Assembly (NCBI GenBank): GCA_947625155.1
Contig: CANQNG010000022.1
Span: forward strand, 1 to 33,212
Source of the DNA: an uncultured Clostridia bacterium
Lineage (GTDB): Bacteria; Bacillota; Clostridia; Oscillospirales; Ruminococcaceae
DNA: 33,212 nt
Direction of reading: 5' to 3'
The notes below the pieces were generated by a model that was given only the letters and a program-made list of their open reading frames with translations, was not told where the DNA came from and searched no databases. Positions 476-17,333 of the stretch are shown here, piece after piece. The translations under genes were made by a program, and so were the position numbers. Each line of letters opens with the position of its first letter. The stretch's first letter is position 1.

Positions 476-1582
476 TTATTCACTTCCCAATGGCACCGGC
501 ACCGCCTCAAAGTAAAAGGCGCGGACTTTTCGCTTGAGCAGGGCAAGGTCGAACACATCGACCACGCCGTCTCCGTTCATATCGGCATTCCAGAAGATGC
601 AGTCTGACGGCTTGCCCAGCAGCCAGCCCTGCAAAAGTTTCACGTCTGTGCTGTCTATGGAACGGTCTGCATTTACATCTCCGGATCCTATGGTGATACC
701 GGGTGCTGCAAAGGCAAGCTCATCATTCACGTCAAATCGTGATGTCTCGCTGTTTTTCGTTACACCGTTGAAATCCACGGTATCTAAGCCGAATTGCAGC
801 GTACCCGCAGAATCCGGGCGGATGACAGTCACAACATACCGTCCCCATCCTTCCATCATGGTATCATCAAGCAGTATGACTTTGCGGTCGCTGATGATGG
901 TGTATTCTGCTGTCGAGCCTCTGTCATTCAGTTCATAGTGCGTCGGCGTGCCTGCGGGGCTGCTATAGCAGTAGACCAGATAACTCACCCCGTCATCGTC
1001 CTGCACGATGCACGGAGAACCGTGCTCGTCGGCAAAGTTGCTGGCTTCATAGTAGCCGTCCGGCACATACCCGAAAATATCCGTTTCCTTTAAGCCATCG
1101 TCTGTCATGCGGAACTCCCATGTACCGACCAATTCCACAAGGTCATACACTTCATTCTCGATAGGCATAGACGTAAGGATGTAGCTGCACGCCAGCGTCA
1201 GCTGCTCTTTCAGAGGTGTTACCAGATATGCCACGCCGCACAGTGGGTAAGTGCTAGTGCTATCCGCATAATACACCTGCTTTTCTGCGATCTCGAAGGT
1301 GAGTGCATCTGACGTATCGGTAGAATACAGCGAAAAGGAAACATCTTTCCCCTCTGCGGCGGCATAGATCAGGATCCCTTCATCCACGATCTGCACATTG
1401 CCGTATTCGTTGATACGGTTGACCAGTTCCGTATAATTTGCCGGCAGCAGTTCTTCACACGGGATCGGTTCGGGTAAGGTCGGTATGGACGGCATATCCT
1501 CCACGGATGCTGCCGGAAATGCAGAGAGCGGCAGCATTGCCCCTGCGAAACAGACAGTGGCAAGACGGTCCAAAAATTTCAT
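476..1582 (-). CDS. Secreted protein with C-terminal type I dockerin
   Basis: A 368-residue exported protein. A signal peptide of about 25 residues (basic start, hydrophobic core, AFPA) leads into a middle region I do not recognise. A type I dockerin sits near residues 298-352, with two EF-hand-like calcium loops (DVNADRSIDSTD and DMNGDGVVDVFD), each followed by a helix. Dockerins plug into cohesins on scaffoldins, so the protein is probably cellulosome-bound. No catalytic motif was recognised in the middle; it could be a binding or structural module. The start is supported by AAGGAG seven bases upstream. It is the third gene of the sigma/anti-sigma operon, 20 bases after the anti-sigma stop, which suggests production is tied to that signalling pathway. 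Confidence 0.9.
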   Translation of the reverse strand: MKFLDRLATVCFAGAMLPLSAFPAASVEDMPSIPTLPEPIPCEELLPANYTELVNRINEYGNVQIVDEGILIYAAAEGKDVSFSLYSTDTSDALTFEIAEKQVYYADSTSTYPLCGVAYLVTPLKEQLTLACSYILTSMPIENEVYDLVELVGTWEFRMTDDGLKETDIFGYVPDGYYEASNFADEHGSPCIVQDDDGVSYLVYCYSSPAGTPTHYELNDRGSTAEYTIISDRKVILLDDTMMEGWGRYVVTVIRPDSAGTLQFGLDTVDFNGVTKNSETSRFDVNDELAFAAPGITIGSGDVNADRSIDSTDVKLLQGWLLGKPSDCIFWNADMNGDGVVDVFDLALLKRKVRAFYFEAVPVPLGSE

Positions 1583-1602: not shown

Positions 1603-2727
1603 TTAGCTGCCAATTTGCTGTAAAATGTTCTGTGCATCGTAAGAGCTTGGGGCATATAGCGCCCCGGTGTAAGCCCCATACGGCACATCGGACGGGATAT
1701 TCGGGGTCAGCACAAAGAGCTGCTCCGTACCGGTGCGGGGAATGTTCCCGAACTCTGCGGCTGCACTTTGCTGAAGCGCCGCATCCGGATATTCGAAGCC
1801 ATCTTCCCGTTCCGGGTGCAGTGTCAGGTAATCCGCAAGCGACATATAGCCGCCTTTCAGATAGACCGAAATTTTGTCACCCGTCTGGTAGCTGCTCCGG
1901 TAGGACTGCGTAATGGTGATATCGAGCTGCATCCACGCTTCTCCGCCGCTTTGCGTGTACCAGATCGTATCGATGCGCCCCATGACGACAAGGGCATTGG
2001 CGGGAACGATGCTTGACGGTGGGAGAGCCGAATGATCGTTCGGAGGCGGTGTATACTCTAAGACCTCATCTGGAACAGTGTAGCTGCTGTAGGGTGTCAC
2101 CCGTTCGTCCCGGAAAGCAGTCACCGGAGGAGGCTCATATGAAAAACCGGGGGCGGTCGGTTCTGGCTCTTTTGGCGAGGGGACGGTCGGTTCGGGCGTA
2201 TCTACCTGCGGAATATCGCCTGTCTGCGGCAATTGGGTCGCCTGCGGAACGGTTTCATCCAGGGGCGGTGCAGTCTGTACGGCATCTGTGCCCGGTGTGG
2301 GAACGCTGTCTGTCTGCACAAAGGGCATCGTACCGGAGACAGGTGCTTCTGTTTCGGAGATGCCGGGCTGTGCGGCAGTGTCCTCTGTGGTGTTTGTCCG
2401 TTCGGTCGCTGCGGGCGGTTCTGTGACAGTTTCATTTCCGGTGTTCTCTGTGACAGTCACCGTTTCCGTGGGTGTCAGCACAGGTACTTTCCGGTCGCTG
2501 ACATTGCGGTAGACCCCTGTTCCGGCAGTGATGAGCAGTACAGCTATCACAGCAGCAGGAATGCCGTAATACAGCGGTTTCCCTGACATATGCAGAAAGG
2601 GGACGGCTATTTTTTTCTCTGGGTACTGCCGGGGCAGGCTGCCGAGAAATTTCGCTTCCCGCAGCGGGTCGGGCTTCGGGAAGGTCGTGTGGAGCGCCTT
2701 GAGTGCCTTCCTGAATTTCCGGCTCAT
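1603..2727 (-). CDS. Membrane anti-sigma-like sensor protein, partner of ECF sigma
   Basis: A 374-residue protein with a basic cytoplasmic N-terminus of about 50 residues and one transmembrane helix at about 52-72. A long Thr/Pro/Glu-rich stalk (about 80-230) follows, then an outside domain of about 130 residues. This is the layout expected of a single-pass anti-sigma factor that senses an outside signal and holds a sigma factor. In cellulosome producers such as Clostridium thermocellum, RsgI proteins do this with carbohydrate-binding ectodomains, but there the partner is SigI rather than a typical ECF factor. I recognise no known anti-sigma domain or CBM here, so the role comes mainly from topology and context. 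The ATG overlaps the sigma stop (ATGA), which indicates translational coupling. Confidence 0.75.
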   Translation of the reverse strand: MSRKFRKALKALHTTFPKPDPLREAKFLGSLPRQYPEKKIAVPFLHMSGKPLYYGIPAAVIAVLLITAGTGVYRNVSDRKVPVLTPTETVTVTENTGNETVTEPPAATERTNTTEDTAAQPGISETEAPVSGTMPFVQTDSVPTPGTDAVQTAPPLDETVPQATQLPQTGDIPQVDTPEPTVPSPKEPEPTAPGFSYEPPPVTAFRDERVTPYSSYTVPDEVLEYTPPPNDHSALPPSSIVPANALVVMGRIDTIWYTQSGGEAWMQLDITITQSYRSSYQTGDKISVYLKGGYMSLADYLTLHPEREDGFEYPDAALQQSAAAEFGNIPRTGTEQLFVLTPNIPSDVPYGAYTGALYAPSSYDAQNILQQIGS

Positions 2728-3176
2728 ACTGACCCCTCCTTTTCAAAATCTCTCCGCATCTGCGCAAGGATGTGTTGTATCCTGCGGTTCATGGCGAACC
2801 AGCTCACCCCGAAGATATGGCTGATCTCCCTGACAGAAAGTTCTGCAACATAGCGAAGCACGATGATCTCTCGTTCCTCCTCCGGCAGACCGTCTAAAAT
2901 TTCCCGGACGGCAAGGCGGTCGAGCCAACCCTCTGCCTGCCGGTCTGCCTGTAATGGTTCGCCCTTTGCCTCGTCAGGCGCTTTCCGGTATTCGTCAATA
3001 CACAGATTGCGGGCGATCGTATACAAATACTGCATTTCCTTGCCGTTTTCCTGATATTCCGGATGTTCCAGAAAGCGAAGGAAGGTCTCTTGCGTCAGAT
3101 CCTCGGCAGTTTCAGGACTGGCGATCCGGCTGGAGCAGTATTCGAATACTTTTCGATACTGTTCTTGTATATCCAT
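2724..3176 (-). CDS. ECF-type RNA polymerase sigma factor
   Basis: A 150-residue sigma-70 family protein with only regions 2 and 4. Region 2 (about 8-75) contains AEDLTQETFLRFLE and the YTIARNLCIDEYR helix that melts and reads the -10 box. Region 4 (about 95-145) contains LPEEEREIIVLRYVAELSVREI and a helix-turn-helix that reads the -35 box. An in-frame upstream extension to 3266 exists, but family homology begins at the ATG at 3176. A GAGGAGGG site lies upstream at a rather long distance of about 15 bases. It is first in a three-gene operon with the anti-sigma-like and dockerin proteins. The conserved promoter at 3205-3258 suggests autoregulation (inference). Confidence 0.92.
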   Translation of the reverse strand: MDIQEQYRKVFEYCSSRIASPETAEDLTQETFLRFLEHPEYQENGKEMQYLYTIARNLCIDEYRKAPDEAKGEPLQADRQAEGWLDRLAVREILDGLPEEEREIIVLRYVAELSVREISHIFGVSWFAMNRRIQHILAQMRRDFEKEGSV

Positions 3177-3204
3177 GGATGTAAATTTTACCCTCCTCAC
3201 TTGG

Positions 3205-3258
3205 TATGACGGATGGGGAGACAAAAATTGCGGATGACCTTGTAAATTTTTTGTGAAC
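3205..3258 (-). promoter_or_regulatory. Putative ECF-sigma promoter of the sigma/anti-sigma/dockerin operon
   Basis: Read on the minus strand there are three blocks, GTTCACAAAAA, TTTACAA and CCGCAATT, followed 14 bases later by CGTCATA. All blocks recur with identical spacing at 12682-12735 upstream of another dockerin gene. CGTC is a typical ECF -10 core and CGCAAT resembles ECF -35 boxes of the TGCAAC type. The implied leader is short (about 20 bases), so the exact -35/-10 assignment is uncertain. Confidence 0.65.
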
Positions 3259-3264
3259 GAAAAC

Positions 3265-3519
3265 AAGGGGGCACTTTTGACAAAAAAGTGCCCCCTTCTT
3301 CCAATTATTGGGTACTATCCTTTCCGCCCAAGGGCGGAAACGCAGACTGCTACCCCCATCCCCCAACCCCCTTCCCAAGGGGAAGGGGGCTATGTTGCGT
3401 GGGCTTCGCCCCCTGCTGTCCCTTTTTTTGCACTATCAGTTGTGCAAGCCGACCTTTGCCGCCGTAGGCGGCATTGGGAGGCACAACGGAGCCGGCAGCC
3501 TGCCGCCAGCGTCACGCTG
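3265..3519. repeat. Hairpin-rich intergenic repeat region 2
   Basis: This gap between trkH and the sigma operon holds no convincing gene. Visible modules are a long hairpin at 3265-3299 (AAGGGGGCACTTTT against AAAAGTGCCCCCTT), TTCCGCCC/GGGCGGAA near 3320-3337, CCCCCTTCCC/GGGGAAGGGGG near 3367-3390, and at 3444-3481 the inverse of the CCTCCCAATGC...GCAAAGGTCGGCTTGC block found in regions 1 and 3. A CAGCGT/ACGCTG hairpin lies near 3509-3520, at the trkH stop. The 3265-3299 hairpin resembles the one at 147-173 in design and may double as a terminator. Confidence 0.65.
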
Positions 3520-4956
3520 CTATTTTTTTCGCACGGTAAACAGCACCAGCAGCGGGTAAATTTCCAGTCTGCCCAGCAGCATATCCACCGAAAGCAGGAG
3601 CTTTGCCCATGCCGAGAAGCCGGCAAAATTGCCGGACGGTCCGACTTCATTCAAGCCCGGTCCGACATTGTTCATGCACGTGATGACGGCAGAGACTGTA
3701 GTCGGCACATCATGCCCGTCCAGTGAAAGCAGCAGCGCCGAACCTGCTAACAGCAGCATGAACACCACGAAATAATTGCACACGCCCCGCACCATTTCCT
3801 TGTCCAGTGCCCTGCCGTCACACTTGACCGTGACGACGGCACGGGGGCAGAGGGTACGCTTGACCTCACGCACCGCACTCTTGAACAGCACGATGATACG
3901 CATGACTTTCAGACCGCCGCCCGTCGAACCGGCACAACCGCCGACAAACATCAGCGACAATAAGATCATCTGTGAGAAAGCAGGCCATTCCGTGTAATCT
4001 GCCGTTCCGAAACCTGCCGTAGAGATGATGGTCAGCACCTGAAATCCTGCATACCGAAGCGCTTTCAGGATACTGCCGTAGATCGGCACGATATTGCCCG
4101 TAATGAGGAGGATGCTCACGGCGCAGATGCCGAGAAACGTCCGCAGCTCCTCGTTTTTGAACACCTGCATGAATTTTTTGGAGAGCAGCAGGTAGTACAG
4201 GGTGAAATTCACGGAGAACAGCCCCATGAACAGTGTCACGATGAAGTCCACATAGGCGCTGTTATAGTCCGCAATGCTTCCCGCCTTGACGGAAAAGCCG
4301 CCTGTGCCTGCCGTGGCAAAGGCAGTTGTAATGGCATCAAAGAACGGCATCCCCCCGAACAGCAGGAAGAGCATTTCTGCCATCGTCAGCGTGATGTAAA
4401 TGCCGTACAGGATGCGCACCGAAATGCTCATCTTCGCCACCAGTTTGCCGGCGGTCGGTCCTGCCGATTCTGCCCGGACAAGGTGCATCGTGCGGGTGTC
4501 TGCCTGCGGCAGGATCGCCAGCATGAAGATCAGAACGCCCATGCCCCCGATGAAATGCGTGAACGCCCGCCAGAACAGGCACGCCTTTGACATGCCCTCA
4601 ATATCGTTCAGGATCGTTGAGCCAGTGGTCGTCAGTCCGGATGCCGTTTCAAAAATGGCATCCGCAAGGGACGGGATGTCACCGGAAAACACATACGGCA
4701 GTGCGCCCAGCACCGAAACAGCGATCCACGCACAGGCGACGACTGCCATGCCCTCACGGGTGTAGACGGCTTTGTTTGCAGGTTTTTTGAGGGTGAACAG
4801 TGTGCCGAGCAAGATCATGCCCACCGCTGTTGCCAGAAAAGCAAAGAAGCTCGCCCGTTCGGCAAAGACGGCTGCTACGATCAGCGGCACCAGCAGCAGC
4901 CACCCGACAGCCCGTATGATCTGCGCTGTCAGATATACGATCATCCGATAATTCAT
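3520..4956 (-). CDS. trkH: TrkH-type potassium transporter, membrane subunit
   Basis: A 478-residue polytopic membrane protein of the TrkH/KtrB superfamily, the K+-conducting subunit. All four selectivity-filter loops are visible: GLTTTGST, TAGTGGFS, STAGFGT and NNVGPG. SMFVGGCAGSTGGG-like glycine-rich sequence (GGCAGSTGGGLK) after the third repeat is also typical of TrkH. The length matches TrkH (about 480 residues). It starts 12 bases after the trkA stop and is surely co-transcribed with it, giving a complete Trk system in which the cytoplasmic TrkA ring gates the membrane dimer. Confidence 0.95.
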   Translation of the reverse strand: MNYRMIVYLTAQIIRAVGWLLLVPLIVAAVFAERASFFAFLATAVGMILLGTLFTLKKPANKAVYTREGMAVVACAWIAVSVLGALPYVFSGDIPSLADAIFETASGLTTTGSTILNDIEGMSKACLFWRAFTHFIGGMGVLIFMLAILPQADTRTMHLVRAESAGPTAGKLVAKMSISVRILYGIYITLTMAEMLFLLFGGMPFFDAITTAFATAGTGGFSVKAGSIADYNSAYVDFIVTLFMGLFSVNFTLYYLLLSKKFMQVFKNEELRTFLGICAVSILLITGNIVPIYGSILKALRYAGFQVLTIISTAGFGTADYTEWPAFSQMILLSLMFVGGCAGSTGGGLKVMRIIVLFKSAVREVKRTLCPRAVVTVKCDGRALDKEMVRGVCNYFVVFMLLLAGSALLLSLDGHDVPTTVSAVITCMNNVGPGLNEVGPSGNFAGFSAWAKLLLSVDMLLGRLEIYPLLVLFTVRKK

Positions 4957-4968
4957 GCTGTACCCCCG

Positions 4969-6327
4969 TTACTGTGCGAACATTTCGTCAAGGCTGGTGA
5001 TCTTCCGGTTAGTCGTGACAACGACCACGCTGTCATTGACCTTGAGAACATCCTCACCGGACGGGATGATGCGCTTGTTGCCCCGGATAATGCCGGCGAT
5101 CAGGAAGCCGGAATTGACGTGCAGTTCTTTCAGCGGCTTGCCGACAAATTTGGCATCGCCCCGCACGATGAATTCGATCGCTTCCAGCTTGTCCTCTACG
5201 AGGCGGTAGAGGGTGATGATGTTGCTGTTGACGGAATTCTGCTTGGCACGGACGTATTGCAGGATGAGTTCTGCTGTTGTCTTTTTCGGGGAAACGATAT
5301 TTTCCAGCCCCACGCTGTCGGAGATGGACAGCAGAGAAGTGCGGTTGATCTTAGTGACGATCTTTTCCACGCCGATGGTCTTGGCATAGAGGGAGAGGAT
5401 GATATTCTCCTCATCAATACCCGTGAGCATGATGCAGGCATCTGCCTTGGCAAGTCCCTCTTCTTCGAGGACATTCTGGTCGGTGCCGTCATCGTGGATG
5501 ACGGTCGCTTTCGGGAACCATTCACTGAGCTGTTCGCAGCGGGCAAGATCCTGCTCGATGATCTTGACCTGAAAGCCCAGTTCGAGCAGCTGCCGGACCA
5601 GATAGTACCCGATCTTGCCGCCGCCGACAATGATACACGAGCGCACCCGTGCTTTGTGATCCCCGACCGCCTTATAGAACCGGGAAAGGTCGCCGTGTGC
5701 AGCGGTGATGTAGATATTGTCCCCGTCTTGTAATACAAAGCTGCCGTCTGGGATGGTGATATCCTGTCCCCGCTTGACGGCACACACCAGCAGGTGGAGC
5801 TTGAGCCGGGTCGAGAGGGAAGAGAGCGCCAGCCCGTCCAGTACGCCGCCGGCAGTGACTTTCATCTCCGCCAAGTCCATGCGCCCCTTGGCAAAGGTCT
5901 CCACGTGGATCGCGTTCGGATAGCGGAGCATACGGGCAATGTCATTGGCGGTCTGGAATTCGGGGTTGATCATCATGCTGATGCCCAATTCCTCACGCAT
6001 AAAGACCATTTGTTCGGAATACTGCGGATTGCGCACACGGGCAATGCTGTGCTTCGCCTTGTTCTTGCGTGCCATCAGACAACAGAGGATGTTGGTCTCG
6101 TCGGAGTCGGTCATGGCGATCAGGATATTCGCCTGATCAACGCCTGCCTCCTGTAAGTCCCGGATAATGAGGGCATTGCCCACAACGCCTTGTACATCGT
6201 TATTGTCCACAAGGCTGCGTACCACATCGGCATTGGTGTCCATGACGGTGATGTCATGTCCCTCTTTACAGAGCGTTTCTGCAAGGATCGTTCCTGCCTT
6301 GCCGCAGCCTACGATGAGAATATTCAC
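4969..6327 (-). CDS. trkA: TrkA, NAD-binding regulator of potassium uptake
   Basis: A 452-residue cytoplasmic protein with two RCK units. The first Rossmann fold starts at the N-terminus (MNILIVGCGKAG) with acidic VMDTN ending strand two. The second is IIVGGGKIGYYLVRQL near residues 230-245. Each is followed by a TrkA-C domain (about 135-215 and 365-450). The double-RCK length matches TrkA rather than single-unit KtrA. I chose the GTG at 6327 because AAGGAG lies nine bases upstream and homologues begin at this strand; an upstream TTG (6348) would place the SD inside the gene. It leads the trkA-trkH operon, behind the promoter at 6369-6397. Confidence 0.95.
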   Translation of the reverse strand: MNILIVGCGKAGTILAETLCKEGHDITVMDTNADVVRSLVDNNDVQGVVGNALIIRDLQEAGVDQANILIAMTDSDETNILCCLMARKNKAKHSIARVRNPQYSEQMVFMREELGISMMINPEFQTANDIARMLRYPNAIHVETFAKGRMDLAEMKVTAGGVLDGLALSSLSTRLKLHLLVCAVKRGQDITIPDGSFVLQDGDNIYITAAHGDLSRFYKAVGDHKARVRSCIIVGGGKIGYYLVRQLLELGFQVKIIEQDLARCEQLSEWFPKATVIHDDGTDQNVLEEEGLAKADACIMLTGIDEENIILSLYAKTIGVEKIVTKINRTSLLSISDSVGLENIVSPKKTTAELILQYVRAKQNSVNSNIITLYRLVEDKLEAIEFIVRGDAKFVGKPLKELHVNSGFLIAGIIRGNKRIIPSGEDVLKVNDSVVVVTTNRKITSLDEMFAQ

Positions 6328-6368
6328 GGTACTGTGCTCCTTTTTCAAAAAATCAAGTCGCCAATACT

Positions 6369-6397
6369 ATTATAGAACGTTTTTCAGGTTTTGTCAA
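6369..6397 (-). promoter_or_regulatory. Sigma-A promoter of trkAH
   Basis: On the minus strand a perfect TTGACA (6392-6397) and a perfect TATAAT (6369-6374) are separated by 17 bases, followed about 40 bases later by the trkA start. Confidence 0.85.
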
Positions 6398-6406
6398 CTA
6401 CTTCCG

Positions 6407-6440
6407 GAAAAAAAGACGCAAAGGGCAGACTGCCCTTTGC
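6407..6440 (-). terminator. Intrinsic terminator of carB
   Basis: On the minus strand, a 10-bp stem GCAAAGGGCA/TGCCCTTTGC (6418-6440) with a three-base loop is followed by GTC and a run of seven T. It begins nine bases after the carB stop and ends just before the trkA promoter. Confidence 0.88.
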
Positions 6441-6448
6441 TTACGAGA

Positions 6449-9400
6449 TCATGTGATCTCTTCATGATGCGCTTGCAGAGATTTGACACCGAAATGGCGG
6501 TTTTCTTTGATCGCCCGAATGCCCTCAGCGGATGCTTTGGCGGCTGCCATGGTGGTGATATAGGGAATGCGGTGCTTGATAGCAGCCTTGCGGATGTAGC
6601 TGTCATCGTGCATGCTTTCCTTGCCGACAGGGGTGTTGATGATGAGCTGGATCTCTCCGTTGGCAATGAGATCGCCGATATTGGGTCTGCCCTCGTACAT
6701 CTTGAACACACGCTCGCAGGGGATGCCCTCTGCCTGCAACAGCTTGCAGCACTTGTGGGTCGCTAAGATGCGGAATCCCAGCGCATGGAATGCCCTTGCG
6801 ATCTCCGGGAGTTCCGGCTTGTCCCGTTCACAGACACTCAGCAGGACAGTACCCTCCTGCGGCAGGCGCACTTGTGTGGCTTCCTGCGCCTTGTAATATG
6901 CCTCCCCGAACGATCCCGAAATGCCCAGCACCTCACCGGTCGAGCGCATTTCCGGACCGAGTAACGGATCGACCTCCGGGAACATATTGAACGGGAACAC
7001 CGCTTCTTTCACACCGTAGTGCTGTATTTTCCGGTCATGCAGCGCCGGGACGGGGGAAGGATTTCCGGTCAGGCTTGCCGTGATGATCTCCGTGGCGATC
7101 TGCACCATATTGATACTGCACACCTTCGAGACCAGTGGTACAGTGCGGGAGGCTCTCGGGTTCGCTTCCAGCACATACACTGTGTCGCCCTCAATGGCAT
7201 ACTGCATGTTCATCAGCCCGCACACGCCCATTTCCACGGCGATGCGGCGGGTGTAGTCCTTGATGGTCGTGATCTGCTGTTCCGTGAGATCCTTCGCCGG
7301 CAGGATGCAGGCAGAATCGCCCGAATGCACCCCGGCAAGCTCGATATGTTCCATGACCGCCGGCACAAAGCAGTGCGTACCGTCCGAAATGGCATCCGCT
7401 TCGCATTCCGTTGCATGGTTGAGGAAGCGGTCGATCAGGATCGGTCTGTCCGGTGTGACACCGACAGCGGCAGCCATGTAGACTTTCATCATTTCGTCAT
7501 CATGTACGATCTCCATGCCTCTGCCGCCCAGCACATAGGACGGGCGCACCATGACCGGATAGCCGATCTTGTTGGCGATGTGCAGCGCTTCTTCCACGCT
7601 GACTGCCATGCCGGATTCCGGCATGGGGATGCCGAGCTTTTCCATCATTGCCCGGAAATGATCTCTGTCCTCAGCAAGGTCGATGGTCTCCGGGGATGTA
7701 CCGAGGATGTTCACGCCGTATTTTTTCAGGTCGTTGGCAAGATTCAGAGGTGTCTGTCCACCGAACTGTGCAATGACACCGAGGGGCTTTTCCTTATCGT
7801 GGATGGCAAGCACATCTTCGAGCGTCAGCGGCTCGAAATAGAGCTTGTCGGACGTGTCATAGTCGGTGGAAACGGTCTCCGGGTTGCAGTTGACAATGAT
7901 GGACTCAAAGCCCAGCTTCTTGAGCGCCAAAGCCGCATGGACACAGCAATAGTCGAACTCAATGCCCTGTCCGATCCGATTCGGACCGCCGCCAAGGATC
8001 ATGATCTTCGGCTTGTCCGAACAAGGACTTGTGTCCTCTGTCAGGTGATACGTCGAGTAGTAGTAGGCAGCATCCTGCGTGCCGCTGACATGGACACCCT
8101 CCCACGCTTCCCGGATGCCGTATTGCAGACGGGTATTGCGGATCTGTTCTTCCGGAACGGCAAGCAGGCTGCTCAGATACCGGTCAGAGAAGCCGTCCAG
8201 CTTCGCCTGCCGCAGGATCGCTTCTTCCGGAACGCTGCCTTTCAGGGTGAGCAGGTGTTCTTCCTCATTCACGAGGTCGAGCATTTCGTTCAGGAAGTAG
8301 TGCTTGATCTTGGTCAGCTCATAGATCTCTTCCACGGTCGCCCCCTTGCGGAGCGCTTCATAGATGATGAACTGCCGTTCGCTGGTGGGTACGTGCAGCA
8401 TGCGGAGCAGCTCTTCCTTTGTCTTTTCGTGGAAGTCCTTGGCAAAGCCTAGTCCGCTCCTGCCGGTCTCGAGGGAACGGATGGCTTTCTGGAAAGCTTC
8501 TTTGTAGGTCTTGCCGATGCTCATGACCTCGCCGACAGCCCGCATCTGTGTGCCGAGCTTGTCCTCTGCGCCCTTGAATTTCTCAAACGCCCACCGTGCA
8601 AATTTGATGACAACATATTCGCCGTCCGGGACATACTTGTCCAGTGTGCCGTACTTGCCGCAGGGGATCTCCTTAAGGGTCAGACCGCAGGCAAGCATGG
8701 CGGAGACCAGTGCGATCGGGAATCCGGTCGCTTTGGAGGCAAGCGCCGAGGAACGGGATGTCCGGGGGTTGATCTCGATGACCACGATCCGTCCCGAGAC
8801 CGGGTCATGCGCAAACTGACAGTTGCACCCGCCGATGACTTCGATCGCTTCTACAATGCGGTAGGAGTATTCCTGCAATTTTTTCTGCACGTCCTCTGCA
8901 ATGGTCAGCATCGGTGCAGAGCAGAACGAATCGCCCGTATGCACCCCGATGGGGTCGATGTTCTCGATGAAGCAGACGGTGATGATGTTGTTTTCGGCAT
9001 CCCGTACCACTTCCAGTTCCAGTTCTTCCCAGCCGCCAATGCTCTCCTCTACGAGTACCTGCCCGACAAGGGAAGCCTGCAAGCCACGGGCACAGACGAC
9101 TTTCAGCTCGTCCACGTTGTAGACCATGCCGCCGCCGGCACCGCCCATGGTGTATGCCGGGCGCAGAACGACCGGGTAGTGCAGTTCTTCGGCGATCTTG
9201 ACGGCTTCCTCCACGGAATAGGCGACTTGGCTCCGGGGCATTTCGATGCCAAGGCGTGCCATGGTGTTCTTGAATTCGATCCTGTCCTCGCCCCGTTCGA
9301 TGGCATCGACCTGAACGCCGATGACCTGTACATTGTACTGTTCCAGCACGCCTGCATTGGAAAGCTCCGAGCAGAGGTTCAGACCGGACTGCCCGCCGAG

Positions 9401-9667
9401 GTTCGGGAGCAGGGCATCCGGGCGTTCCTTTTCGATGATCTGTGTCAGCCGTTCGAGGTCAAGCGGCTCGATGTAGGTGATGTCGGCAACGTCCGGGTCT
9501 GTCATGATAGTGGCAGGATTGGAATTGACGAGCACGATCTCGTAGCCGAGTTTCCGCAGTGCCTTGCAAGCCTGTGTGCCGGAATAGTCAAATTCGCAAG
9601 CCTGCCCGATGATGATCGGTCCTGAACCGATAATGAGTATCTTGTGGATATTTTGTTTTTTTGGCAT
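6449..9667 (-). CDS. carB: Carbamoyl-phosphate synthase large subunit
   Basis: A 1072-residue full-length CarB, which makes carbamoyl phosphate for pyrimidine and arginine synthesis from bicarbonate, glutamine-derived ammonia and two ATP. Two homologous ATP-grasp synthetase halves are seen: residues about 1-400 starting [20 protein letters not shown], and about 555-930 starting [20 protein letters not shown]. An oligomerisation domain lies between them and a C-terminal MGS-like allosteric domain lies at about 940-1072. The start is supported by AGGAG six bases upstream. The glutaminase subunit carA is not adjacent: the next upstream gene is a small RHH regulator with its own terminator. The mRNA leader contains several hairpins and no recognisable PyrR site. 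Confidence 0.98.
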   Translation of the reverse strand: [1072 protein letters not shown]

Positions 9668-9682
9668 AAACGACTCCTGACC

Positions 9683-9769
9683 CGTGCATGATGCACGTAA
9701 AAGATTACGGCGGCGGTCTGCCCCGGCAGGGGCAGCCTGTTCGCCGGATAGTACCCATACAAACTATCC
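9683..9769 (-). promoter_or_regulatory. Structured 5' leader of carB
   Basis: Three inverted repeats occupy the leader: GGATAGT/ACTATCC at 9746-9769, right at the predicted start of transcription; CTGCCCC/GGGGCAG near 9718-9736; and CGTGCA/TGCACG at 9683-9697, next to the ribosome-binding site. None has a T-run, so they are not classical terminators. They could be an operator at +1 plus RNA structure controlling carB. No PyrR-loop consensus or known riboswitch was recognised. Confidence 0.5.
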
Positions 9770-9775
9770 TGTTTT

Positions 9776-9804
9776 ATTATACCATACCATGACCGAAATT
9801 GCAA
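9776..9804 (-). promoter_or_regulatory. Sigma-A promoter of carB
   Basis: On the minus strand TTGCAA (9799-9804), a 17-base spacer and a perfect TATAAT (9776-9781) precede a leader of about 100 bases before carB. Confidence 0.8.
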
Positions 9805-9825
9805 GGATCTTTTTGCAGGAACACA

Positions 9826-9853
9826 CAAAAACTGCCCTCTTGCAGCAGAGGGC
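9826..9853 (-). terminator. Terminator of first RHH gene
   Basis: On the minus strand, GCCCTCT and AGAGGGC (9834-9853) flank a six-base loop and are followed by AGTTTTTG. It lies four bases after the stop codon of the small gene at 9858-10037. Confidence 0.85.
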
Positions 9854-9857
9854 GTTC

Positions 9858-10037
9858 TTATTCCTGATGGGTCTCTTGGCAGGAATGGGATCCCAGTGCG
9901 AATTGGATGCACTGGTTCACGAGCTGATTGAAAGAAATATTGTTTTCAGCAGCCAGTTTGTCGAGTTGTTGTGCGACCGGTTCCGGGATGCGGATGGTTT
10001 TGGTGACATGTTCATATCCTTTGGCAATGATAAACAT
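9858..10037 (-). CDS. Small Arc/CopG-type ribbon-helix-helix DNA-binding protein (copy 1)
   Basis: A 59-residue protein, easily missed because of its size. A beta strand (TKTIRIPEP) and two helices (VAQQLDKLAAENN, SFNQLVNQCIQFAL) give the ribbon-helix-helix fold, which binds DNA as a dimer through the strand. The ATG at 10037 has GAGAGGG about six bases upstream. It has its own TTGACT-17-TATAAT promoter and a clean terminator. It is nearly identical over the first 48 residues to the gene at 10528-10704. It diverges from an XRE regulator; palindromes in the shared spacer are likely binding sites for one of them. It could be an antitoxin-like or plasmid-type repressor, but no toxin gene is adjacent. 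Confidence 0.88.
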   Translation of the reverse strand: MFIIAKGYEHVTKTIRIPEPVAQQLDKLAAENNISFNQLVNQCIQFALGSHSCQETHQE

Positions 10038-10072
10038 AGAGATCCCTCTCTTTTTATATACTTATATTTATG

Positions 10073-10094
10073 ATTAGTACTAAAAAGTACTAAT
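10073..10094. promoter_or_regulatory. Perfect palindromic operator candidate O1
   Basis: Two perfect 9-base arms, ATTAGTACT and AGTACTAAT, flank AAAA. The site covers the predicted start of transcription of the RHH gene, a position where a bound repressor would block it. Confidence 0.7.
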
Positions 10095-10100
10095 ACAAAA

Positions 10101-10129
10101 ATTATATCATCATTTTGTGGTATAGTCAA
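10101..10129 (-). promoter_or_regulatory. Sigma-A promoter of RHH copy 1
   Basis: On the minus strand TTGACT (10124-10129) and TATAAT (10101-10106) with a 17-base spacer. It is bracketed by the palindromes at 10073-10094 and 10128-10149. Confidence 0.82.
10118..10126 (+). promoter_or_regulatory. Extended -10 promoter candidate of XRE gene
   Basis: TGG directly before TATAGT makes a TGn-extended -10 box. No good -35 is present. It overlaps the -35 of the divergent RHH promoter, so the two promoters probably compete. Confidence 0.45.
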
Positions 10130-10149
10130 TAGTACTGAAAAGTATTAGT
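10128..10149. promoter_or_regulatory. Imperfect palindromic operator candidate O2
   Basis: AATAGTACT and AGTATTAGT flank GAAA. The arms differ from those of the perfect palindrome at 10073 by one and two bases. It overlaps the -35 of the RHH promoter and lies just downstream of the XRE -10, so it could affect both. Confidence 0.6.
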
Positions 10150-10191
10150 TCTCAAAATCGGGATAGTGCCCAAAACAAGAGGTGATTTTTT

Positions 10192-10413
10192 GTGTATTTT
10201 CAACGGCTCAGAGATCTCCGTGAGGACAGGGATATGAACCAGACACAGGTGGCTGCGCTGCTGTTCACCAGTCAGACGGTGTATTCACGCTATGAACGGG
10301 GCTTTCAGACCATTCCGGTCGAACATTTGCTGGTGCTTGCGGATTTTTATGATGTGTCCGTAGATTATATTCTCGGTCGTACCAACATCAAGGAATTGAA
10401 CCGGGGAAAATAA
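10192..10413 (+). CDS. XRE-family helix-turn-helix regulator
   Basis: A 73-residue protein that is almost entirely one Cro/C1-type domain: LRDLREDRDMNQTQVAALLFTSQ carries the helix-turn-helix and is followed by the usual YSRYERG and the DYILGR ending. It starts at GTG 10192, with AGAGGTGA five bases upstream. There is no second domain, so it is probably a simple dimeric repressor. It sits between two nearly identical RHH genes that run the other way, and shares the operator-bearing spacer at 10038-10191 with the first. Confidence 0.93.
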   Translation: MYFQRLRDLREDRDMNQTQVAALLFTSQTVYSRYERGFQTIPVEHLLVLADFYDVSVDYILGRTNIKELNRGK

Positions 10414-10527
10414 ACTGCCCCCGCCTTTCGGCAGGAGCAGACCTTGGTGACAGTATGTATGCAGAAAAGCAGTGAGCCCGTCATTCGTTCAACCCGCTCA
10501 CCCCCCTGATCATCGATCCCGGTGCGT

Positions 10528-10704
10528 TTATTGTACGTCGTCCCGGTCATCTTGTGAGTTGAGTGCGAATTGGATGCACTGGTTCACAAGCTGATTGAAA
10601 GAAATATTGTTTTCAGCGGCAAGCCTGTCTAGCTGTTCCGCCACGGGTTCCGGGATACGTATGGTTTTTGTCACCTGCTCGTACCCTTTCGCAATTCTGA
10701 ACAT
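10528..10704 (-). CDS. Ribbon-helix-helix DNA-binding protein (copy 2)
   Basis: A 58-residue Arc/CopG-type protein that differs from copy 1 (9858-10037) at only about five of the first 48 positions, then diverges to a short acidic tail. The nucleotide sequence is also strongly conserved, so the pair arose by duplication. I chose the ATG at 10704 because it aligns with the start of copy 1. An in-frame ATG at 10755 has a stronger GGAGGTGA site, but at about 12 bases, and would add 17 residues without a counterpart. No clear terminator follows; a GTGAGC/GCTCAC hairpin lies near 10472-10501. Confidence 0.85.
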   Translation of the reverse strand: MFRIAKGYEQVTKTIRIPEPVAEQLDRLAAENNISFNQLVNQCIQFALNSQDDRDDVQ

Positions 10705-10800
10705 ACGATATGCCTGATACACAGCCAATATTGCATTGCCGGAGCAGACTGCCATATCAGGCTGCTGTCACCTCCGGGTCAGTTTCTCCGGCATTCAGGC

Positions 10801-10864
10801 AACACCTATGCGGTGTTACTTATAGCATATCACATTTTCCCGAAAAAGTCCAGTCCTTTTTCGG
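10801..10864 (-). promoter_or_regulatory. Upstream region of RHH copy 2 with two inverted repeats
   Basis: AACACC/GGTGTT at 10801-10817 follows a minus-strand TGC-TATAAG extended -10 candidate (10819-10827). CCGAAAAAG/CTTTTTCGG lies at 10840-10864. A second minus-strand TGTGC-TATACT box lies near 10898-10908. These suggest one or two weak promoters with an operator at the start site. They differ in sequence from the operators of copy 1. Confidence 0.4.
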
Positions 10865-10967
10865 AAAGATCTGCCGTTTGTTCCGGCTCTGCCTATTCAG
10901 TATAGCACATTTCCGGAAAAAAGGATAGAGGCATTTCTGGATCACTTTTGCATACAGATGTGATCAC

Positions 10968-12659
10968 CTATTCCGGGTAGGTGTACGGCTCACCGGCAAG
11001 CATTACCTCTGCCGTGCAGTCGGTCAGTTCCATTTGCGGGTAGGTGTACGGCTCACCGCCGATCATTACCTCTGCCGTGCAGTCGGTCAGTTCCATTTCT
11101 GCGCTGCCGCTGCCGACAAAAGCACCGCCGGATGCCACACTGCCCTGTACATGAACATTTTGCAGCGTGATGGTGCTCGGGTACCGGGTATTTCCCACGA
11201 GAATGCCGGCGTTCCGCCCCGTAACATCCGCATCGGTAAAGGTAACATCATGGACAGAGAGATCATCGCTGATCTGATCGGCAAAGCCGCCTGTAACGGT
11301 CATGTGGCTGATCGTGTGTCCGCCGCCGTCCAGTTCTTTCAGACCGTCTGAAACCGGCGACCATGTGTAGCCGGACAGATCCAGATCTGCCACAAGGACG
11401 ATCTTGTAACGATGCCCCGGCAGGATGTGTTCTATCGACTGCGTGGCGTTGATGTAGTAGATAGCACTTGCGAGTTCCGACACACTGGAAACGGTGAACG
11501 TGCTGTTGGCAAGGTTTTCCTTTGCCCAGTTCTTGTCGGCAAGCTGTAACAGATCGCCGCAAGCCCCGGAACGCTCCCAGTCAGACGTATACTGCGTGAT
11601 GTCGTCCACCTCGTAGGGCATACCCTTGCTGACTTTGCCGAAGCACTTGCAGGTATACGCATCCGCCAACAGGAAATAGCCCTCCTGATCCGTGGTAAAG
11701 GTCAGCGTGTTGGCTTCGGTGTCCCGTTTCAGGTCGGTGATCTCCTGAAAGATCTGTACCCCCTCATCCCGGTAGGCAAGGACGATGAGGTTTCCTTCCG
11801 GTACCCACCGGAGTTCGTCCTCGTTGTAGTGCAGCGTCACGGTGTATGCCCCGATACTGTCTTTCTTCGTCACCTGAAATGCCGTTCCCACGATGCCGAC
11901 CGCATTGTTGACCATCCAGTGCCCGGAGCGGGTAACGTTCATTTTCCGCTCAATATCCCCGTAGCAGTCCGTTGCAATGTCCACTGAGCTGATCTCCGGG
12001 GCTTCCTCAAAGTTAAGCGGTTCGGTAAATTGCTGCGGCACACGTGTTCTGTCCGGGTAGTTCAGTTTTTCCACCGGAAAGCCGTCATTCGTGGGCAGTT
12101 CGGGCGGGAGCTGTACATAGACGGCATCTTCTTTCCACCCGATCGCATAATTCCCGTCCCCGAACGTGAAGTCGTTCAGCCATGTGCCCTCTCCGGAAAT
12201 TGCCGCACCATTGTAGGAGAAGTGGTCTGTTTGTTCCGGGTCGCCGTCCGGGTCGTACCATGTGACGGTGACAGCGGTCTGCTGTTTGTAGTTTGTTTTC
12301 ATGGAAAAGACCATCCGGTAACTGCCGTCCGGTGATACAAATTCTGCCTTGCTGTAAATGCTCTGCTGTTCGAGGATCGCCTGTTTCAGCAGGGCAAGGT
12401 CAAAAATATCCACCGTCCCGTCAAAGTCCATGTCCGCAAGCAGCATCTGCTCCGGTGTCAGTTCGACCTGTCCGAGCAGATATTGCTGAAGCAGAACAGA
12501 GTCGGCAATGTTGAGCTGACCGTCCATAGTGACATCGCCGGGTCCATACCAGATGTCCGGAAAGACATCCGGCGGCAGCGGTTCGAGCGCACCTGTGTGC
12601 AGTGGTGCTGTGCAGAGGACAGCCGCAAGGGCTGCCGCCAAGAAAATCGATTTGCGCAT
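10968..12659 (-). CDS. Secreted protein with N-terminal dockerin and GLUG-like repeats
   Basis: A 563-residue exported protein. After a signal peptide (about 1-25, ending near HTGA), a type I dockerin lies unusually at the N-terminus (about 41-97: GDVTMDGQLNIADS and DMDFDGTVDIFD). Its second half closely resembles that of the dockerin protein at 476-1582 (VDIFDLALLK against VDVFDLALLK), implying the same cohesin partner. The middle is unrecognised. Toward the C-terminus, LDGGGHTISHMTVTGG and following lines look like GLUG-type beta-helix repeats. The protein ends in two near-identical 21-residue units. The ATG at 12659 has AGGAGG eight bases upstream; a longer in-frame start at 12704 lacks such support. 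Its upstream region carries the putative ECF promoter. Confidence 0.9.
   Translation of the reverse strand: MRKSIFLAAALAAVLCTAPLHTGALEPLPPDVFPDIWYGPGDVTMDGQLNIADSVLLQQYLLGQVELTPEQMLLADMDFDGTVDIFDLALLKQAILEQQSIYSKAEFVSPDGSYRMVFSMKTNYKQQTAVTVTWYDPDGDPEQTDHFSYNGAAISGEGTWLNDFTFGDGNYAIGWKEDAVYVQLPPELPTNDGFPVEKLNYPDRTRVPQQFTEPLNFEEAPEISSVDIATDCYGDIERKMNVTRSGHWMVNNAVGIVGTAFQVTKKDSIGAYTVTLHYNEDELRWVPEGNLIVLAYRDEGVQIFQEITDLKRDTEANTLTFTTDQEGYFLLADAYTCKCFGKVSKGMPYEVDDITQYTSDWERSGACGDLLQLADKNWAKENLANSTFTVSSVSELASAIYYINATQSIEHILPGHRYKIVLVADLDLSGYTWSPVSDGLKELDGGGHTISHMTVTGGFADQISDDLSVHDVTFTDADVTGRNAGILVGNTRYPSTITLQNVHVQGSVASGGAFVGSGSAEMELTDCTAEVMIGGEPYTYPQMELTDCTAEVMLAGEPYTYPE
10975..11100 (-). repeat. 63-bp tandem duplication at the 3' end of the dockerin gene
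   Basis: Two units, 10975-11037 and 11038-11100, are nearly identical except for a few bases around 10996 and 11059. They are in frame and encode 21 residues each (ELTDCTAEVM...GEPYTYP). This looks like a recent slippage or unequal-crossover event. Confidence 0.9.
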
Positions 12660-12681
12660 AGAAATATCCTCCTTTATTTTA

Positions 12682-12735
12682 TATGACGTGCGGGTGCGGA
12701 ACAATTGCGGGCGGAATTGTAAAGTTTTTGTGAAC
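12682..12735 (-). promoter_or_regulatory. Putative ECF-sigma promoter of second dockerin gene
   Basis: The minus strand carries the same blocks, in the same order and at the same distances, as the site at 3205-3258: GTTCACAAAAA, TTTACAA, CCGCAATT, then 14 bases and CGTCATA. The bases between the blocks differ, which argues for conserved protein contacts rather than simple duplication. It ends 22 bases before the ATG at 12659. Confidence 0.65.
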
Positions 12736-12925: not shown

Positions 12926-12996
<71 letters not shown>

Positions 12997-13003
12997 TCTT
13001 TTT

Positions 13004-13077
13004 GCGGATGTAGTTTAGTGGTAGAGCATCAGCTTCCCAAGCTGAGTATGCGGGTTCGATTCCCGTCATCCGCTCCA
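13004..13077 (+). tRNA. tRNA-Gly (CCC)
   Basis: The acceptor GCGGATG pairs with CATCCGC. The anticodon stem TCAGC/GCTGA holds TTCCCAA (anticodon CCC). The 3' CCA is encoded (13075-13077). It lies seven bases after the previous tRNA. Confidence 0.95.
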
Positions 13078-13080
13078 TAT

Positions 13081-13157
13081 GCGCCTTTAACTCAGCTGGA
13101 TAGAGTAACTGCCTTCTAAGCAGTAAGCCATTGGTTCGAGTCCAATAAGGCGCGCCA
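13081..13157 (+). tRNA. tRNA-Arg (TCT)
   Basis: The acceptor GCGCCTT pairs with AAGGCGC. The anticodon stem ACTGC/GCAGT holds CTTCTAA (anticodon TCT). The 3' CCA is encoded (13155-13157). Confidence 0.96.
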
Positions 13158-13976: not shown

Positions 13977-16900
13977 CTAATTCAGTATTTTTTTCAGGAG
14001 CGCTGTCATCAGCTCCATGTCTATGGGCTTTGCAAGATGCCCGTCCATGCCGGATGCCATGGCTTTGCGCTTGTCCTCCTCAAAGGCATTGGCAGTCATG
14101 GCGATGATCGGTACACGGCTGTGCACTGTATCTTCCAGAGAGCGTATTTTTTGGGTCGCTTCATAGCCGTCCATGACCGGCATCTGGACATCCATGAGGA
14201 TCAGATCATACCGTCCCGGCTCGGCATCCCGCACCATTTCGTATGCCTCCCTGCCGTTTTCCGCTGTTTCCACGGTGAAGCCCAGACTGCTCAGCAGTTC
14301 AATGGCGATCTCACGGTTGAGCTCATTGTCCTCCGCCAGCAGGAGCCGTTTCCCCTCAAAGTTCTGCTCCGCTGTTTCGTCCGTTTCCTCCTGTACTTGT
14401 CCGGTAGTGCGTGCCAGTGCTTGGTGCAGATCGGAGGCAAACAACGGCTTGCTGATCAGATCCGTGACCCCGGCAGCCCGTGCCTCGTGCTCAATATCCG
14501 ACCAGTCATATGCCGAAAGCAGTATGATGGGTGCATCCTGTCCGATCACACGCCGGATCTGCCGGACCGTCTCGATCCCGTTCATGTCGGGCATCGACCA
14601 GTCAATGATGTATACCTCATAGGGATCGCCGATGTCCAATGCTTCCTCTGCCCGGACAACAGCCTCCTTGCCGTACATGGTCCATTCAGACCGCAGTCCG
14701 AACTGCCGCAGCATTTTTGACACGCTCTGGCAGCTTATGACATCATCATCCACCACGAGCCCACGTTTCCCTTTCAATTCGGTAATGACCGAAAGCACCT
14801 GCGTTTCGCCGCCGATCTTGAATTCCAGCTCGATGATGAATTCCGTACCCTTGCCCGGCTGACTGTGGACCTCGATCGTGCCGTGCATCATATCGACGAT
14901 ATTTTTGGTGATGGACATGCCCAGACCAGTCCCCTGTATCCCGCTGACCGTAGAGGTCCTTTCACGGGTGAAGGGTTCAAAGATCGTCTTGGCAAATTCC
15001 GGGCTCATGCCGATACCGGTATCTTTGACACGAAATTCATAAGTCCCGCAGCCCTCATGCGGGGAGGGCTTTTGGGTAACACGAAGAGAGACTGTCCCGC
15101 CCGGGTCGGTGAACTTGATAGAGTTGGAGAGCAGATTCAGCAGGATCTGGTTCAGCCGCAGCTTGTCACAGCGGATATTTTCCTCGGTCACGTCTACCGT
15201 GTCAATGAACAGTTCCAGCTGTTTGGCATGCACATCTGCCTGAATGATGTTCCGCAGCCCGTGCAGGATCTCGGCAAGATCTTCCGGCTTTTCCTCAATG
15301 GTCACATTGCCGGATTCGATACGGCTCATGTCCAGCACGTCATTGATCAGAGAAAGCAGGTGATCGGATGACTGGGCGATCTTGGAAAGATAATCCTTTG
15401 TGCGCTCCGTGTTGTCAAGATGTGCCGATGCCAGCGCTGTGAAGCCGATAATGGCATTCATCGGCGTGCGGATGTCGTGGGACATATTGTTCAGGAAAAC
15501 GGTCTTTGCCCTGTTTGCCTGATCTGCTAAGTCGAGCGCATCAGAGAGTTCCTGCTCCTTGATCTTGTACTGCTCGCTGATCTCCTGTATCCGCTTTTCC
15601 AAGAGTTTTTGAGAGTGCATCCTGAACAGCAGTACGAGGCAGACAATGGCGAACAGGCAAACAAACAGCAGCACTGCCATTCCATATCCGGGATTTGCAT
15701 ACAGGAACGCCGCCAGCGTTTTGCTGCTTTCAGAGCCGTGCAGATCGGCTTCCGCTATGATGATAGCGGAAAGCTTTTCATCACTGAGTCCTGCGATCTC
15801 CTTGTTGAGCACAGAAAGCAGGAGATGACTTTCGCTGGCTTTCACGCCCATGCAGTAGGAAACGGCAAGGTCTCCCAAGATCACAAAGCTGTATTTGTTT
15901 TTCACATCGTTCTGGATGATACGTTCCGTTGTATAGGAAAAGAGGATCGCCGCATCGGCACTGCCGTCGCCGACCGCCTTGACACACGCATCAACGCTGT
16001 TATAATAGGTGATCGTATCCGGGTCGTACATGTCCGCAGCATAGCCGGACGGAACGACAGGCTGTTCGACGGCGGCGATCGTCTTGATCTCATTATCATG
16101 GAGTTTCCGGGTCAGGCGGGCAAGGCTGCAATCCATATATGGGTCGGTGAGCTTATAGCCCTCCTTTTCCGCTTCGTAATAGGACGTGGAAAGATCCAGC
16201 ACGATGTCTGCTCCCTGACTTTCCCGGATGCGGTAGTATTCCGTACTGTTGGCTGTTTCCACAAATTCATACCGGATATTGTTTTTGTCTGCGAACTCCC
16301 GGAATATTGCCGGGAAGATCCCCTTGGCTTCGCCGTTTTCAAAATAGGAATATGGTGACAGATCGGGGTCGGTCAGCACTTTCAGCGTTCTTCCGGTATC
16401 CGCCAGTGACTGGAGATAGCTTCTCTCAGCGGCATCGAGCATCACGATCCCCTCGGCATCGAGAGAATAATATTTCTGGTGCAGCAGGTTCCGCCAGTCA
16501 GGTTCCTTGAGATCCAATTCATGAATGGCATCGTTGATCCGATCCATGAGCTGCGTATCGTTTTTGTTTACAGCAACGTAGAAGTCGGCTGCATCCATGG
16601 ACTCGATCAGCCATTCATTGTTCAGCCGGCGCAGGCTCCCGGAGACCAGACCGTCAATGCTGCCGTCCTGAAGCGCATCCGACATTTCGCTTTCTGTTTC
16701 AAAATATACGGGGATGTAGGTAAAAGCATGACTTTCGGAAAAGCGGCGGAAATTTTCGTTCTTGGAATTTCCTTCCAGCATCCCGATCTTCAGACCGTCG
16801 TAAGTGGCGCAGTCTCCCGCAGTGACCGCCATGTTGCCGGCTTTCACCGTGAAAATGGTCTCATTCGTACCGATCGGTTCATCGGAAAAGAGAAACAGCT

Positions 16901-17234: not shown

Positions 17235-17333
17235 ATGCCATTTCTCCTTTGTCATGTCTTTTTCCGGAAATACATAGCATAGAGGCGAGATGGATCTCCG
17301 GCGTGTTTCATTTGGGGCGGATGTCTTATATCC

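Follow-up and report, generated by a model that had tools for sequence, protein, structure and literature searches.

A probable extracytoplasmic function sigma switch for accessory dockerin proteins in an uncultured Clostridia bacterium

What connects the operon of a sigma factor with a distant dockerin gene that is preceded by the same blocks at the same distances? The question arises from a stretch of 33,212 nucleotides from an uncultured Clostridia bacterium of the gut (Ruminococcaceae; assembly GCA_947625155.1, contig CANQNG010000022.1), here called the window, which is contig 22 of a draft genome of 1.96 Mb (G000; 38 contigs, 86.5% complete). On the minus strand, GTTCACAAAAAnTTTACAA-n6-CCGCAATT-n14-CGTCATA occurs at 3205-3258 and at 12682-12735 with identical spacing, once before the gene of an extracytoplasmic function (ECF) sigma factor and once before that of a dockerin protein (Table 1). 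An earlier note on this DNA had described four equally spaced minus-strand blocks with differing bases between them, and all strings are found where it placed them. Judged from sequence comparison, it is highly likely that an autoregulated ECF sigma factor (2724-3173) with an anti-sigma partner drives both sites and the dockerin targets described below. The system is probably a switch for accessory dockerin proteins, distinct from SigI/RsgI.

Table 1. Elements of the putative sigma system in the window.
Feature	Position	Strand	Basis
Third operon gene: 368-aa secreted-type protein, C-terminal dockerin	476..1582	(-)	Dockerin_1 3.4e-11
Putative anti-sigma factor, 374 aa	1603..2727	(-)	overlap with sigma stop; N-terminal segment kept in orthologs
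Region with predicted NTR/TIMP-type OB-fold ectodomain	1606..2133	(-)	structure models (window, G187 relative), structure matches
ECF sigma factor, 149 aa, sigma-70 regions 2 and 4	2724..3173	(-)	Pfam, TIGR02937
Putative -10 element CGTCATA, sigma operon promoter	3205..3211	(-)	CGT invariant in 14 orthologs
Putative -35 element CCGCAATT, sigma operon promoter	3226..3233	(-)	conserved in 14 sigma orthologs
Upstream 11-bp direct-repeat box GTTCACAAAAA-A-TTTACAA, sigma operon	3240..3258	(-)	GTTCACAAAAA 3258-3248, TTTACAA 3246-3240
563-aa secreted-type protein, N-terminal dockerin, second putative regulon member in window	10968..12659	(-)	Dockerin_1 2.7e-11
Putative -10 element CGTCATA, dockerin gene promoter	12682..12688	(-)	sequence match
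Putative -35 element CCGCAATT, dockerin gene promoter	12703..12710	(-)	sequence match
Upstream direct-repeat box GTTCACAAAAA-C-TTTACAA, dockerin gene	12717..12735	(-)	GTTCACAAAAA 12735-12725, TTTACAA 12723-12717

The two putative promoters and the sigma operon

The two 54-base sites agree at 39 of 54 positions, whereas the best of 400 resampled pairs reaches 32 (best ungapped 54-nucleotide match between first-order-resampled upstream regions of 300 bases, 400 trials). With up to 3 mismatches, the 54-mer is found in the draft genome at these two sites only (reversed control: 0), and TTCACAAAAAnTTTACAA occurs twice in the window against 0.04 expected, again with up to 3 mismatches. The core alone, allowed up to 2 mismatches, is not above chance in the window (25 matches vs 35.5 expected), and the case therefore rests on exact copies, spacing and comparison. 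Exact copies of the core in the window are confined to the two promoters; CGCAATT-n14-CGTCA occurs exactly at three places of the draft genome, namely both window promoters and position 2049 of contig 20. A looser core pattern (156 matches in the own genome vs 74 in the reversed control) was used for exact copies only. The -10 string ends 31 bases before the start codon of the sigma gene and 22 bases before that of the dockerin gene, so that the leaders would be short.

The pair CCGCAATT/CGTCATA reads as the -35 and -10 elements of an ECF promoter, and the two upstream blocks read as a separate 11-bp direct repeat. Of the idea that all four blocks form one shared sigma-factor promoter, the core is thus retained as a putative ECF promoter, whereas the first two blocks do not appear to be sigma-specific.

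The sigma protein matches Sigma70_r2 at residues 4-65 (6.1e-15) and Sigma70_r4_2 at residues 87-139 of 149 (1.6e-10), and its TIGR02937 score is above the cut-off. Carrying sigma-70 regions 2 and 4 only, in a short protein, it belongs to the ECF (group IV) type; its best solved relative by profile is SigW (5wuq, E = 1.6e-17). The ATG at 3173 (149 residues) is most likely the start, rather than that of a longer TTG frame. The sigma stop overlaps the start of the membrane-protein gene (ATGA, 2727/2724), which ends at 1603; 20 bases on, at 1582, begins a dockerin gene preceded by AAAGGAG. The sigma gene, the single-pass membrane-protein gene and the dockerin gene are read as one operon. In 13 sigma operons, the gene behind the membrane protein encodes a dockerin in 6 (two types) and another protein in 4, and lies past the contig end in 3. 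The products of both window genes carry a dockerin, as cellulosome components do.

The membrane protein, a probable anti-sigma factor, consists of an N-terminal segment of about 50 residues, one hydrophobic span (by eye, about 2509-2574), a Pro/Thr-rich linker, and a C-terminal domain. A profile search of PDB sequences with the whole protein returned three weak matches (E 0.44-0.6), which we take as chance. The C-terminal domain models as an NTR/TIMP-type OB fold. A model that put the window sequence first scored 66.8 in the predicted local distance difference test and had no match at E ≤ 0.001 in Foldseek; a second one, led by the G187 sequence, is better and carries most of the argument. The modelled ectodomain fits the agrin NtA and N-TIMP type of OB fold, flanked by helices, and the predicted fold is like that of agrin NtA, TIMP-1/2/3, the PCOLCE1 NTR domain and complement C345C, at 8-17% identity in the listed alignments. 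TIMP protease inhibitors have an N-terminal cysteine and disulfides, whereas region 1606-2133 encodes no cysteine and its domain is tethered via the N-terminal side. A TIMP mechanism is therefore not expected. A literature search gave no anti-sigma factor with an NTR/TIMP domain among the 8 of 32 matches listed, all of which were unrelated.

The putative promoter and its candidate targets across the genus

Relatives of the sigma factor are found at E ≤ 1e-15 in 26 of 38 genomes of the genus, and those in 14 genomes (the own genome included) are 50-100% identical. All 14 close sigma genes have a common promoter with 13 invariant positions; in the repeat these include TTCA and TT.AC, in the -35 element AA and in the -10 element CGT. 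The distance from repeat to -35 varies by one base, and that from the -35 block to the -10 element is 14 bases in 14 of 14; the -10 element reads CGTC or CGTT in every ortholog promoter and the -35 element CGCAA in 13 of 14. Each of the 14 thus appears to combine an X-G-T-Y -10 element, a -35 element at the usual ECF spacing and a position before the sigma gene itself. We infer that the sigma factor is autoregulated. Excerpts of PMC10575876 give X-G-T-Y as the ECF -10 form. Distant sigma relatives keep a related promoter (e.g. TGCACATT...CGTTATA), several of them without the repeat.

A sequence-only profile was built from the 14 sigma-gene promoters alone and run on the 38 genomes (E ≤ 1e-4). 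The search scored at most 150 candidates per genome, so that site counts are lower bounds in rich genomes. It returned 48 matches, the 14 training promoters and 34 others, of which 30 carry the -35/-10 core and 4 the repeat only. The 30 core sites lie in 13 genomes, 12 of them with a close sigma factor; the 13th, G049, is 59% complete and no sigma factor was found in it. Two of the 4 repeat-only matches lie outside these 13 genomes. Where the earlier note had named random scatter across the genome as telling against a regulon, core sites are confined to genomes with a close sigma factor plus one incomplete genome. The enrichment before dockerin genes for which it had suggested a scan is also seen: at 20 of the 30 core sites the first downstream gene encodes a dockerin (Pfam).

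These 20 dockerin targets comprise 7 with a serpin domain (one also with leucine-rich repeats, LRR), 7 with LRR_5, and 6 with a dockerin alone (two cut by contig ends). None of them matches a Pfam glycoside hydrolase, esterase, lyase or binding-module family at E ≤ 0.01. The notion of a cellulosome-associated regulon accordingly has to be read as one of dockerin-bearing proteins: no family of carbohydrate-active enzymes (CAZymes) appears, and the set does not look like a cellulase regulon. The own genome has 63 dockerin matches and the genomes range from 41 to at least 126, from which we estimate a background of less than 10% of genes; because these counts are lower bounds in rich genomes, 10% was also used as the background. 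With sites taken as independent, the probability of 20 dockerins in 30 is 1.1e-13 at 10% and 1.8e-19 at 5%.

The regulon dockerins may also tend towards one class. A strict DVFDLALLK-type pattern in the second repeat is present in 14 of 21 regulon dockerins vs 18 of the 63 own-genome matches (p = 0.002), and by eye the class covers 19 of 21 vs 20 of 63; the 21 comprise 19 of the 20 targets at E ≤ 1e-4, all but that of the window, and two dockerins of weaker sites. Because the sequences were known when the pattern was drawn up, this is a lead only. The regulon dockerins resemble by eye the ScaC-binding groups 3/6 of Ruminococcus flavefaciens. Several classes can be told apart by eye among the 63 own-genome dockerins; one has the DVFDLALLK half in second place and another, reversed, has it in first place, which recalls the reversed groups 3 and 6 of that species. 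The 563-residue dockerin protein of the window has an ortholog with the promoter in G009 (L005/L178) and, by eye, a relative in G001 (L129). Its C-terminus shows a short tandem duplication (MELTDCTAEVM..GEPYTYP).

The core varies with the sigma lineage. A core site is on average closer to the sigma promoter of the genome it lies in than to that of another genome (13.56 vs 12.87 of 16 core bases, 32 pairs, p = 0.007; 31 pairs and p = 0.009 without the site G006C16). This comparison left out the four core-less sites, one site in a sigma-less genome and two G049 sites; five weaker core sites (E 1.6e-4 to 8e-3), which belong neither to the 34 nor to the 30, enter the pairing when the sigma factor is present in their genome. 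Beyond the genus, a family search over 148 genomes of 123 genera found a sigma relative at E ≤ 1e-24 in 7 genomes of 5 genera, four of them from other genera. In these four genomes the profile has two strong matches, and G187 holds both: its sigma promoter, and a site before a gene with LRR_5, dockerin and serpin, which was read as far as the fetched sequence goes. In both G187 promoters CCGCACATT replaces CCGCAATTT.

The proposed switch and competing explanations

In the switch that we propose, the cytoplasmic N-terminus of the anti-sigma factor would hold the sigma factor, and its extracellular NTR/TIMP-fold domain would sense an outside condition. On the signal, the anti-sigma factor would be inactivated, most likely by stepwise membrane proteolysis as in other single-pass anti-sigma factors. 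The freed sigma factor would direct RNA polymerase to CCGCAATT-n14-CGTCATA promoters, a step for which the sequences argue strongly. It would raise its own operon and a few secreted dockerin proteins, consisting of serpins, proteins with leucine-rich repeats and others of unknown fold. The set also seems to take in some membrane proteins of the envelope and a short untranslated RNA, the latter in three species. The GTTCACA-n4-TTTACAA repeat may be a second, independent input, either an UP element or a response-regulator site. The kinds of target point to a role in protecting the dockerin machinery or in remodelling its surface rather than in supplying enzymes. A bolder version, which we put forward as speculation and think unlikely as a whole, is a protection regulon: the TIMP/NTR-fold anti-sigma factor would sense extracellular proteolysis or a matrix ligand, the ECF factor would bring serpins and LRR proteins that share one dockerin class to an adaptor scaffoldin, and the small RNA would adjust other genes. 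If this were true, cellulosome composition would respond to attack rather than substrate.

Several results weigh against the proposed ECF switch. The membrane protein matches no Pfam family above the cut-off, and a scan of 5 orthologs gave no known anti-sigma domain, so that its role is argued from gene position and conservation of the N-terminus; in G021 it is without the C-terminal domain. The close sigma factor occurs in just 14 of the 38 genomes of the genus, and in the own genome just three core-bearing promoters were found, one of which appears to drive a short non-coding RNA. The three other genera with distant sigma relatives gave no full-length match to the profile, which does not model their -35 element. 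Ten of the 30 core sites are not demonstrably before a dockerin gene: they precede two LRR_5 genes and one secreted-type gene (all three truncated at contig ends), a protein of LPQTG type (by eye; G021C132), one acyltransferase (G021C87, incomplete at the edge of the sequence retrieved), one membrane protein without Pfam match (G006C123), and, at four sites, no convincing gene. Three of these four are RNA-like; the fourth, G006C16 (G006:C16:2213, L174), bears the core and is followed by 300 bases that hold no gene; the gene that comes next, 470 bases on, encodes by eye a secreted glycoside hydrolase and has its own sigma-A-like promoter. Sites with orthologous targets are not independent; when the sites are sorted by eye into some 13 families of targets, a dockerin is present in 7 (P = 1e-4 at a background of 10%). 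The core-only pattern CGCAAWWn13-15CGTYAWA is not enriched genus-wide (48 vs 54 in the reversed control) and was rejected as a regulon finder, being too loose at that scale. Split by genome, the same pattern gives 36 vs 16 reversed in 15 genomes (the 14 with a close sigma factor and G049) and 12 vs 38 reversed in the remaining 23 (Fisher 4e-6).

The repeat invites another explanation, in which the blocks are the operator of one regulator (e.g. of OmpR type on 11-bp repeats), the housekeeping sigma factor transcribes, and the ECF gene is one more target. GTTCACA-n4-TTTACAA is indeed an 11-bp direct repeat, which the profile, by the way it was built, finds at nearly all strong sites, and the G041 sigma promoter (L046) has three tandem units (GTTCATA, GTTCACA, ATTTACA) upstream of its -35 element. 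Box-like sites in the own genome number 49 vs 10 in reversed controls, and at two sites, G001:C4:33975 (L173) and G049:C247:1005 (L176), GTTCACAAAAA.TTTACAA stands without the core some 30 bases upstream of a promoter that is sigma-A-like by eye; the genes downstream of both belong, also by eye, to an S10-type ribosomal operon. Against the operator, neither window promoter has by eye a sigma-A -10 element rightly spaced from TTTACA, whereas the core CCGCAATT-n14-CGTCATA stands at fixed spacing directly before the ribosome site. Several core sites have no box that is recognisable by eye (G041C21, G041C148, G006C296, G010C172), and the core varies together with the sigma lineage. We hold this explanation to be very improbable. 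Since the repeat occurs without the core and the core without the repeat, we regard the repeat as a second input, separate from what the sigma factor recognises. GTTCACA-n4-TTTACA resembles PhoB/PhoP and WalR sites. A reading as a Pho box was rejected: PstS-type proteins (PF12849) occur in 2 of 9 system-bearing genomes, the window's genome not being one of them, and by this indirect test their scarcity does not support a link to phosphate. What remains is a site of WalR or another regulator, or an UP element.

An autoregulated ECF factor may also serve a general cell-envelope stress regulon in which dockerin genes are reached because they are numerous. Genes for a YfhO protein (G053C12, site E 1.6e-4), the acyltransferase, the LPQTG-type protein and the membrane protein downstream of the promoter suit such a regulon. 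The share of dockerins among first genes, 20 of 30 against a background below about 10%, speaks against it, as do the dockerin as third operon gene in 6 of 10 operons and the recurrence of an LRR, dockerin and serpin target in another genus; we rate this explanation as unlikely. Recent duplication of one promoter segment, with no functional meaning, would account for a long shared stretch within one contig. However, the bases between the blocks differ, and the same blocks recur with other spacers in other species and another genus, which leaves duplication with a negligible probability.

Relation to known systems and further observations

The proposed ECF switch has SigI/RsgI of Clostridium (Acetivibrio) thermocellum as its functional analogue from another family, with which it shares a sigma gene followed by that of a single-span membrane protein with an extracellular domain, and the link to dockerins. 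According to excerpts of PMC10575876, SigI is without sigma-4, has its own C-terminal domain instead and reads A-tract/CGWA promoters. The window sigma factor has sigma-4 (Sigma70_r4_2) where SigI has that domain, and its putative promoters read CCGCAATT/CGTCATA instead of an A-tract -35 and a CGWA -10 element. Unlike in RsgI, the ectodomain is predicted to be NTR/TIMP-like, and the dockerin targets are without CAZyme families. Pfam includes an RsgI_N model; the RsgI N-terminal domain has no match at E ≤ 1 in 5 orthologs, a search in which weak matches may be filtered out. The suggestion that the system is parallel to but distinct from SigI/RsgI thus holds up well, above all by the true sigma-4 region. 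A 2024 survey (PMC11557425) reports, in the excerpts available, a dedicated suite of RsgI receptors solely for Acetivibrio-type producers.

With group IV (ECF) factors that have a membrane anti-sigma factor (SigW, SigV/RsiV type), the system shares a two-domain sigma factor, a C-G-T-Y -10 element, an operon with a membrane protein, and presumed autoregulation. It differs in that no known anti-sigma domain was found here, a dockerin gene lies in the operon, and the target set is another. The targets recall Doc-SERPIN group 6b and LRR-Doc of Ruminococcus flavefaciens FD-1, which have the same combinations (signal peptide, dockerin, serpin; LRR, dockerin) and are likened here by their domains. 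Neither is assigned a sigma factor in the FD-1 excerpts of PMC2930009 and PMC5301203, which place the Doc-serpin in group 6b, state that the one tested bound the ScaC cohesin, and propose that serpins may protect the complex. A literature search found no ECF factor tied to dockerins or ruminococcal cellulosomes among the titles and beginnings of abstracts listed (in one case 10 of 179 matches). As far as this search found, dockerin proteins would here be linked to an ECF switch for the first time. For the regulation of ruminococcal-type cellulosomes it offers a concrete putative sigma/anti-sigma pair, a defined promoter and a target list, and it points to regulated non-enzymatic cellulosome parts (serpins, LRR proteins) and to a predicted NTR/TIMP-type fold on a bacterial signal transducer.

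The RNA-like sites, G000:C20:2025-2150 (L135), G009:C34 (L141) and G001:C1:39098 (L130), consist of an ECF-type promoter followed by a conserved GAAAGTAATACA and a hairpin, with no gene (hairpin z of -4.6, -2.8 and -4.3 in G000, G009 and G001, respectively). They are candidates for a sigma-dependent small RNA in three species, the window's own genome included; in G000 and G001 it would be 70-80 nt long. The reverse complement of GAAAGTAATACA has no match with up to 2 mismatches in the window, to which the search was confined. In G000 and G001 the site stands behind membrane-protein genes that are related by eye, and in G001C1 a lipoprotein-like gene with its own sigma-A-like promoter (by eye) follows 135 bases on.

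Elsewhere in the window, 25980-29333(+) encodes a 1117-residue protein with pectate lyase, beta-helix and dockerin; its dockerin is of another class by eye, and no core lies upstream within 2 mismatches. A hybrid sensor kinase of 1092 residues is encoded at 13977-17255(-), with solute-binding-like regions at the N-terminus and two receiver domains by eye. Its gene is near a tRNA-Gly/Gly/Arg cluster at 12926-13157(+).

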